Source: Methanohalophilus sp. RSK | Lineage (GTDB): Archaea; Halobacteriota; Methanosarcinia; Methanosarcinales; Methanosarcinaceae | Direction: 5' to 3' | Length of the DNA: 64,000 bases | Assembly: GCF_003722075.1 (NCBI RefSeq) | Contig: NZ_RDSK01000001.1 | Span: 62,001-126,000 of the forward strand | Position numbers and translations under genes: made by a program | In this document: piece by piece, positions 9,335-49,349 of the stretch | Position numbering within the stretch: the stretch's first letter is position 1 | Layout of the letters: each line of letters starts with the position of its first letter | The notes under the pieces: generated by a model | Told to the model about the DNA's origin: nothing | Databases searched by the model: none | The model's input: only the letters and a program-made list of their open reading frames with translations

Positions 9335-9891
9335 TGCAGTTACATATCAGGGATGCTGTAATAGATTATGAGATAGTTCACCGTCCCGTCAAATACGCAA
9401 GGTTGGAGTTTAAGGACGGAATGTTGCGGGTAATAGTTCCCAAAGGATATGGTAATGCTGCAGCCTTTGTCGGGAAAAATACAGACTGGATTTATAACAA
9501 ACATCTGTATTTGCAGCGGGTTATTGCTCTAGTCGGGGAAAAAAGGCTGGAGAAAAAGCGTGCTGAGCCTCACTTTTACAGTTTAATCGAAAGTATTGTA
9601 CAAAGGCTGCAACAGGAACTGGAAGTAGAGGTCAGGGATTTAACTTTCAGGAAAATGAAGAGGAAATGGGCCAGCTGCAGCAGTAACAAGAAACTTGTTT
9701 TCAACCGGCACATGATGTATCTGCCGGATAGTCTGATAGAATATATTGTGTATCATGAACTTTTGCACCTTATCGAGTTTAAGCACAATAAGAGATTCTG
9801 GAACCTGGTAGAAGCCAGATATCCTCAACGAAAGGAATATGACCTGGAACTTGCAGCATACTGGCATCTAATTAAAAAGACATTTTACTGA
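9331..9891 (+). CDS. YgjP-like (DUF45) zinc metallopeptidase
   Basis: A 186-residue protein with the DUF45/YgjP layout: an N-terminal beta region (YEIVHRPVKYARLEFKDG) and a catalytic helix YHELLHLIEF (HExxH) followed by KHNKRFWNLVEARYP, which supplies the third zinc ligand region. KWASCSSNKKLVFN is the conserved segment before the helix. It is coupled to truA through an ATGA overlap. Two ATGs stand together at the start. The substrate is unknown. It converges with the Trm-G10 gene, overlapping it by about 7 nt. Confidence 0.85.
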   Translation: MMQLHIRDAVIDYEIVHRPVKYARLEFKDGMLRVIVPKGYGNAAAFVGKNTDWIYNKHLYLQRVIALVGEKRLEKKRAEPHFYSLIESIVQRLQQELEVEVRDLTFRKMKRKWASCSSNKKLVFNRHMMYLPDSLIEYIVYHELLHLIEFKHNKRFWNLVEARYPQRKEYDLELAAYWHLIKKTFY

Positions 9892-10922
9892 TTATTTTTT
9901 TGCAAAATTGTGATATTGCGGGTCAGGCTTCTGTGTATTCTCTGGCTGTACTGTTTCACTATGGTAAATCCCGCATCCAGTGCGATCCTGTTAATCTCCA
10001 TCTCTGACACAATTACTGTTTTACTGCCGGGTTTGAGAACCCTGTACATTTCTGCGAAGGATTCTTCGTATAAATGCCGGATGGATTCTGCCTTGATCAT
10101 GGCAGACCTGCCATAAGGAGGATCGGTGATCACTGAATCAATACAGCTGTCTTTGAGGGGTAATTTACATGCATCTCCCTACAACAGGTTATAATCGCCG
10201 CCGAAATATTCCAGATTCAATTTTGCTCCCTGTATGATTTCATTGCGTGCTTCCAGACCGATTACCTTTGAGCCCAGCATGGCCGCTTCCACGAGTATGC
10301 CGGCAGTACCGCAGAACGGATCCAGCAGTCCGGTATCCTTGTTTACCCCTGCAAGGTTTACCAGCGCCCGGGCTGTAATGGGCATGAGTACCCCTGGATA
10401 GAAAAAGGGTTTCTTGTGGGGTGCACGTGCATGGAAGGCCTTGCGGTCTATGGATGCAATGACAGAGCCACACACGCATTTTTCGGTCAGTATGAGCCGC
10501 AGGGTAACATCGGGTTGGTTGAGATTGGCCCTGTAACCCTTCCTGAAAACAGCTCCGCCTACCCTCTGTTCCAGATAAGAGCCTTCCACGGCAGTATGGT
10601 GATTGACCTTCCGGGCACGTACTACAAAGGTCTGGCCCGCAGAAAGATGGGGTTTGATGTCACAGTTTTCTGCACTGGAAATAATGGTTTCGGGTTCATT
10701 CTTACAGATGAAAGCCACTCGCAGGATATGATGGCACATGGCCAGTTTTCCGGCGATTTTTTCCAACCTAATTTCGGCATCCGGCTCTTCAAGTTCCACC
10801 ACAAGACAGTGATCATAATGTTGCGTGTATACCGGTTTGAGACCTTCAGTAGCCAGACAGGCCACAGCCTCGTCTGCAGCGATTTCTTCATGGTCTCCGG
10901 AAAGTTCAAAAGCGTAACGCAT
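9885..10922 (-). CDS. trmG10: tRNA (guanine-10-N2)-dimethyltransferase with in-frame UAG
   Basis: Makes m2G/m2,2G at position 10 of tRNA. Residues 1-160 carry the THUMP region (MRYAFELSGDHEEIAADEAV). The methyltransferase half has motif I LLDPFCGTAGILVEA and the catalytic motif IV TDPPYG. The frame is interrupted by one TAG at 10179-10181 (codon 248 of 346), between the SAM-binding motifs and motif IV. The same frame continues at once with GDACKLPLKDS...VITDPPYG to a TAA at the usual family length. Ended at the UAG, the protein would lack its catalytic motif. UAG read as pyrrolysine or otherwise suppressed is the simplest reading; a recent nonsense mutation is the alternative. ATG 10922 follows the DUF1805 stop by one base. 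Confidence 0.85.
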
Positions 10923-11224: not shown

Positions 11225-11845
11225 TTATTCAAGCTAAAGAGAAAAATATGATGTATTCCCGATATTGCCCCTCACAAAAGTAGTATTTTCTCCTTCTGAA
11301 ACAGTAACGTTCTCCATTCCTGCTGTAGAATTTATCTCCACTGTATCGGCAAGTTCGATCACCACTTCTGAGTGATTCTGTCCCCTGAAGGTAAAGTTCG
11401 TGCCGGAATTGAGAACTGGTGCATCAAAAATATAGTCGACACTGTAACTGTTTTCTATCCTGTCTGTCTTGTTGATGTCACCCAGAGTTTCAAAATCCAG
11501 CTGTGCTGCGATATCTGTCACCTGGATATTTTCAGAGGAACCATTGATCTGTACATCCATCTCCTCTTCCAGTTCTCCTTTGAGGTAACTGCGCACTTTG
11601 ACATCCATTTTCAATATTTCCCAGGCGTTGACAAGCCCGCTGTCGTCTCCCAGCTGTGAATCGATATAATCTCTGTAAAGAATGGCGGATGAATTTGTGT
11701 AACTTTCGTTGTAATTCCATTCCATGCTGTTGTTTTTGAGTATTATGTGATTGTTCCAGGTCATCTGGCCGGATGCGGGCATGATCAGGATAAGTAGCAT
11801 CAGCAGGATAAGTATTGCAACCACAAGTTTACGCAAAACAGACAC
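11225..11845 (-). CDS. Secreted or membrane-anchored protein; UAG with backup TAA
   Basis: A protein of 203 residues to the UAG at 11234-11236, followed in frame by CTT GAA and then TAA at 11225-11227, so read-through would add three residues. An N-terminal hydrophobic segment (LVVAILILLMLLILIM) ending PASGQ is a signal peptide or anchor. The rest is an extracytoplasmic beta-rich domain with many N-glycosylation sequons (NES, NSS, NGS, NKT, NHS, NVT, NTT, NTS). No family recognised. It lies between map and DUF1805 in a leftward run. Confidence 0.75.
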
Positions 11846-48209: not shown

Positions 48210-49349
48210 TTAGGAATTTTTTATTAATGTTGTATACATTTCCAGTGTTTTTTTGGCAATTGTAGGTGAATGAAATTTTTCTTCTGCATTCTTTTTTGCA
48301 TGTTGTCCAAATTCTCTCCTTTTTTGTTCATTATATAGCAACTCAACTGTGCACTAAGCGATTTTCTCCGAATCATTTGGATTTATAATATAACCAGTTA
48401 CACCATCTTCAATTAAAAACTCATTGCTTTTTATATTTGATGCTATTACAGGTGTCCCTGTTGCCATTGCTTCAATTACAGCCATTGGTTGTGTTTCTTG
48501 ATTTGAAAGAAGGTAAACAATTGATGCTTTACGATACAATTCAAGAATTTCATCCCTTGTGACTCTCCCACGATATTCCACTACACTAGTTAATTTTTTT
48601 TCATTAATTGTATTCTTTACTTCTTTTAAATATGTATTTTCGAAACCACCAGTAAAAATGATTTTTACATCATTTATATCATCCTTTATTAATTCAATAG
48701 CATTTATTGCAGCTAGTTGATTTTTTCTTTTTGTGATTGTTGCGGGATAAAATATAATATTGTCCCTATAATTTTGTGGGACGTTAAAGAAGGATTCATC
48801 CATAGGATTGTTTATCTGAAATATATTTTTTACTTTTTCATATACTCCTATATGTTTAAGTTCATCTATAACGTATGGACTAATTGCAACAAAACCATCT
48901 AATTTAGGAATAATTCTACGTTTTAATACAAACAAATTGTAGTTCAATATTTGTTTAGATAGCAAATTTACATGTTTTCTTTCTAAGTGATACATCCCAT
49001 GGAGTGTCACAACTTTCGGTGTTTTTGTCCCCATCACAAAAGATAAAGCAATAGGAGAATGGGAATGTATTATATCAAATTTGTGGGTTTTTAAAAAATT
49101 TCTAACAATTATAGCATCGCCAATAGATCGAATTATATACTTGATACGTGGAAAATAATGTATTCGTACATTTGAAGATATTGCATTAATAAAATAATCA
49201 TCTATGTCATCTCTTATTGATACAACATCTATAGCAATATCTTCTTTTTCCTTTGGAAGATATTTCATCAAATTATATACTACATTATCTGGACCCACTG
49301 AAGGAGACCGCCCTGGCAATGGGAATAAACCAATCATACATATTTTCAT
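48210..49349 (-). CDS. Family 4 glycosyltransferase with in-frame UAG
   Basis: A GT-B enzyme with IGLFPLPGRSPSVGPDNVV, HGMYHLERKH, FYPATITKRKNQLAAINAI, YRGRVTRDEILELYRKASIV and QETQPMAVIEAMATGTPVI. A TAG stands at 48354-48356 (codon 332). The same frame continues CTVELLYNEQKRREFGQHA, KKNAEEKFHSPTIAKKTLEM to TAA at 48210-48212, which is the normal last 47 residues of this family. Total 379 residues, the usual length. Read-through, probably as pyrrolysine, would restore the C-terminal helix that packs on the N-domain. Confidence 0.85.

Follow-up and report, generated by a model that had tools for sequence, protein, structure and literature searches.

Pyrrolysine (Pyl) is already known from proteins other than the methylamine enzymes, and in archaea with the "Pyl code" of Kivenson et al. 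TAG is reportedly a sense codon in general. Among the closest described systems is the tRNA-His guanylyltransferase Thg1 of Methanosarcina acetivorans, whose Pyl has been ascribed to neutral evolution (Heinemann et al. 2009, as cited in PMC2933860 and PMC3639795). In the account given in PMC2933860, the amber codon of Thg1 occurs in M. acetivorans only, and the Pyl residue, which was observed in the protein, is dispensable for activity. An amber codon in the citrate synthase of Methanohalophilus mahii has also been proposed to encode Pyl (PMC3017947), and Pyl has been observed by mass spectrometry in the MttB of M. portucalensis, which belongs to the same genus as the organism studied here (PMC4928046). 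Insertion of Pyl has been reviewed as a competition between Pyl-tRNA and the release factor (PMC9499178), and a UAG reporter in M. acetivorans gave 20-30% read-through (PMC2933860). Deletion of pylT in M. acetivorans stops methane production from methylamines, as cited in PMC4928046.

The gene considered here, trmG10, is a tRNA G10 (guanine-N2) methyltransferase-type gene at 9885..10922 on the minus strand of the window, by which we mean the whole 64,000-nucleotide stretch that was analyzed (C1:62001-126000 of a 1.97-Mb draft genome of 18 contigs from a halophilic methanogenic archaeon, with an estimated completeness of 99.6%, whose closest relatives are Methanohalophilus species). The initial annotation had reported a TAG at codon 248 of this gene, followed by 97 codons with GDACKLPL and TDPPYG up to a TAA, and had argued that termination at the TAG would remove the catalytic motif; both statements held when the frame was checked on the minus strand. 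The TAG, at 10179..10181, is the sole interruption of the frame from 10940 to 9885 and is codon 248 counted from the ATG at 10922, or codon 254 from an upstream TTG. The 97 sense codons that follow include GDACKLPL and the catalytic TDPPYG motif (10110..10127, minus strand) and end at a TAA at 9885-9887. Reading through the UAG gives a protein of 345 aa, and stopping at it a product of 247 aa that lacks TDPPYG. The genome holds one copy of the gene.

The read-through product matched TIGR01177 with an E value of 1.5e-79 and 267.7 bits, which is below the equivalog threshold (curated cut-off 316.55) yet strong. It also matched PF01170 over residues 168-335 (E 3.9e-28), a THUMP domain and the PDB entry 6zxw, a tRNA (Guanine(10)-N2)-dimethyltransferase. 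Because a THUMP domain and a UPF0020 methyltransferase domain were both found and the family match is full-length, the product is predicted to be a tRNA G10-type methyltransferase (TIGR01177/archaeal Trm11). Residues D267-G271, within the TDPPYG motif, are invariant in an alignment of 11 sequences. The predicted structure of the read-through product is of low confidence in the catalytic domain, with a pLDDT of <50 over residues 160-279.

The congeners are 92-96% identical to this trmG10 across the TAG position, and both before and after the TAG most differences are at third codon positions, for which reason the continuity of the frame is more than chance. There is no frameshift over the 97 codons 3' of the TAG, the congeners share the same length and TAA end, and a search along the frame for a second lesion besides the TAG found none. 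As to which residue relatives carry at codon 248, a check that the initial annotation had proposed, the codon is CAG (Gln) in every close congener and CAA or CAG in two more distant Methanohalophilus genomes, while genomes outside the genus encode V, T, M, L, I, E, C, S, Y, F or still other residues. Since the codon is CAG in all close congeners and the position is variable outside the genus, the TAG is, as judged from the alignment, a one-base CAG-to-TAG change in a single species at a tolerant site. Changes unique to this genome 3' of the TAG comprise one synonymous and two nonsynonymous substitutions, and these three are too few for showing purifying selection after the mutation.

A search for the pyl genes, which had likewise been proposed, recovered all of them. 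A gene for tRNA-Pyl (pylT) with a CTA anticodon is on the same contig as the window, as are PylS, PylB, PylC and PylD, each above its NCBIfam cut-off (PylC was found with TIGR03909; PF21360 gave a false negative). The genome also has two copies of mtmB with one TAG apiece, and its mttB and mtbB genes carry a TAG as well. Having a complete pylTSBCD cluster together with UAG-containing mtmB, mtbB and mttB, the organism should in principle be able to insert Pyl, and the presence of pylT, pylS, pylB, pylC and pylD provides a mechanism for reading UAG as Pyl. Two features by which Pyl proteins are recognized were found for trmG10, namely a UAG with a conserved downstream frame and pylT, pylS and pylBCD in the organism. 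The mark of a conserved or catalytic Pyl site such as that of MtmB, a UAG shared among orthologues, was not found, as none of the congeners has a TAG there.

In-frame TAGs were also surveyed over 1.22 Mb (62%) of the genome, against 0.88 Mb of one relative and syntenic pieces of others. The single-copy gene for alanyl-tRNA synthetase, alaS (C13:108440-111244), has a TAG 22 codons before its end where five close congeners have CAG. In comE (TIGR03846; sulfopyruvate decarboxylase beta, coenzyme M synthesis; C12:72302-72868), which is present as a single full-length copy directly 3' of a comD-like gene, the TAG is at codon 125, a position that is TTG or TTA (Leu) in five congeners and Lys in some other genera. 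A single-copy gene for a copper-type P-type ATPase, copB (C1:27863-29842), is likewise interrupted by a TAG, 30 codons short of its end, at a position that is CAG in five congeners. In the window itself, a gene of unknown function (11225..11845, minus strand; 206 aa if read through) also has an in-frame TAG (11234-11236), which lies three codons ahead of the TAA end and corresponds to TAT or TAC (Tyr) in four congeners. The TAGs of these four genes, all from the 62% of the genome that was examined, are in this species alone. Further TAGs interrupt a glycosyltransferase family 4 gene in the window (48210..49349, minus strand; TAG at 48354-48356, codon 332), whose Glycos_transf_1 match extends across the TAG (residues 184-353), and a TnpB gene; a large surface-type protein, an FGE-sulfatase-domain protein and a PAS/GAF histidine kinase (C9:218613-221516; C13:85029-85451 and 87684-88412) have one in-frame TAG each with a long continuation. 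For these last five genes, which are without close orthologues, the interruption is less certain. From the single-copy genes listed, it seems that other core functions here need UAG read-through too.

Of 1,140 ORFs with a length of ≥100 aa in the same 62% of the genome, 31 are terminated by TAG, though spurious ORFs are among those counted; several of the TAG-ended ORFs are in-frame interruptions and several look like true ends. To count interruptions against orthologues, the proteins of relatives were aligned to the genome and internal stops were scored where the differences on both sides were mainly at third codon positions. Several matches with TAG, TAA or TGA were discarded, judged by eye to be antisense ORFs or to lie upstream of real starts. 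Transposases aside, one of which has a TAA, the scan gave three interruptions by TAG (trmG10, copB and comE) and none by TAA or TGA. With equal odds for each of the three stops, a 3-to-0 bias would arise by chance with a probability of ~1/27, which is supportive but not conclusive; alaS and the gene at 11225..11845 were found by listing TAG ends and were left out of this count. Genuine TAG terminators probably occur too, candidates being pylB and two genes at C9:56199-57086 and C9:294402-295205, whose relatives end with TAA at the same place or one to two codons off. With true TAG ends also present, UAG is ambiguous in this genome. The TAG of pylB is directly before the start of pylC, and TAG ends pylB in most relatives examined and TGA in one; a pylB ending in TAG is known in other Methanosarcinaceae (PMC2933860).

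We consider it likely that the UAG of trmG10 is read as Pyl and that it arose by near-neutral drift in a genome that tolerates UAG as sense. A C-to-T change would have turned the Gln codon CAG into TAG at a family-variable position in one Methanohalophilus species. With tRNA-Pyl, PylS and the Pyl biosynthesis enzymes at hand, ribosomes would place Pyl at this UAG in competition with the release factor, and on the simplest account partial or full read-through would yield enough full-length methyltransferase. The TAG would persist because UAG seldom terminates genes here and a number of genes tolerate it as sense; the change would then amount to near-neutral drift in a cell that decodes Pyl and would have acquired no regulatory role. 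Insertion of Pyl at codon 248, its efficiency and its neutrality we infer. The proposal that this enzyme is made by UAG read-through is supported in so far as the pyl genes are present and the gene is otherwise intact, but not as a special case, given the TAGs in alaS, comE and copB. Its corollary, that a core tRNA modification is tied to Pyl supply, follows only if read-through is required; such a dependence is a plausible consequence, which would be shared with alanyl-tRNA synthetase and coenzyme M synthesis, and would be one of several; it bears no sign of selection. A stronger version, in which UAG is effectively sense, alanyl-tRNA synthetase, coenzyme M synthesis, tRNA G10 methylation and the copper-type ATPase all need Pyl, and the pyl operon would be indispensable on methanol as well, we put forward tentatively, as somewhat short of an even prospect.

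Other explanations for the TAG appear considerably weaker. It is unlikely that it marks a fresh loss of function, with trmG10 a very young pseudogene that yields an inactive 247-aa product. The changes 3' of the TAG are too few for testing selection, and decay is known in the genus, where only 3' remnants of citrate synthase were matched in this and three other genomes; moreover, in the congener G004, which is close to M. profundi, trmG10 (C2:1081328-1082379) is broken in two by what looks like a frameshift at around codon 90. However, copB is likewise split in the G004 assembly, and both splits are probably assembly errors; in the other four of the five close congeners the trmG10 orthologue is open. 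Also against decay, trmG10 has no second lesion, comparable genes show no TAA or TGA interruptions, and like TAGs are found in single-copy alaS and comE. Loss of alaS or comE should be lethal. A sequencing or assembly error in the 18-contig draft is very unlikely, even though the change is a single base in a single genome and one strain of the species was examined: several different substitutions (from CAG, TTG and TAT/TAC) all give TAG, which makes error the less likely, no orthologue-supported gene outside the transposases is interrupted by TAA or TGA, whereas random error would not favor TAG, and the estimated completeness is high. Least likely of all is a selected regulatory switch coupling G10 modification to Pyl (methylamine) supply, as, although truncation would remove TDPPYG and activity should hence depend on read-through, none of the congeners has the TAG, which is thus not conserved, the RNA just 3' of it has no unusually stable, PYLIS-like structure (z -0.49 versus shuffles), and the TAGs of the same genome are in unrelated genes with no common theme.

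Compared with known systems, the in-frame UAG of trmG10 resembles those of MtmB, MtbB and MttB, all three of which are encoded in this genome and would use the same machinery, but Pyl is functional and conserved in those enzymes, whereas in trmG10 the UAG stands in place of a Gln codon, at a position that varies. The rarity of TAG terminators and the in-frame TAGs in a number of ordinary genes recall the "Pyl code", although some TAGs in the 62% of this one genome look like real terminators. Like trmG10, the citrate synthase of M. mahii is a non-methylamine enzyme with an amber codon in the same genus; in contrast to trmG10, only remnants of its gene are left in several congeners, which makes decay to a pseudogene a more serious alternative for it than for trmG10, and the published amber codon may represent early decay. 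In our comparisons, citrate synthase was full length with one TAG in one congener, probably M. mahii, and only 3' remnants were matched here and in three others. A close parallel is Thg1: Pyl was physically observed in that protein, whereas in the trmG10 product it is predicted, but both are tRNA-processing enzymes with an in-frame UAG in one species only and with pyl genes present. On its own, trmG10 is one more neutral Pyl candidate; taken with the UAGs of alaS and comE, it allows the question whether drift can make a rare amino acid indispensable to be tested cleanly, since loss of pylT in this species should harm growth on methanol also, unlike the case of M. acetivorans.
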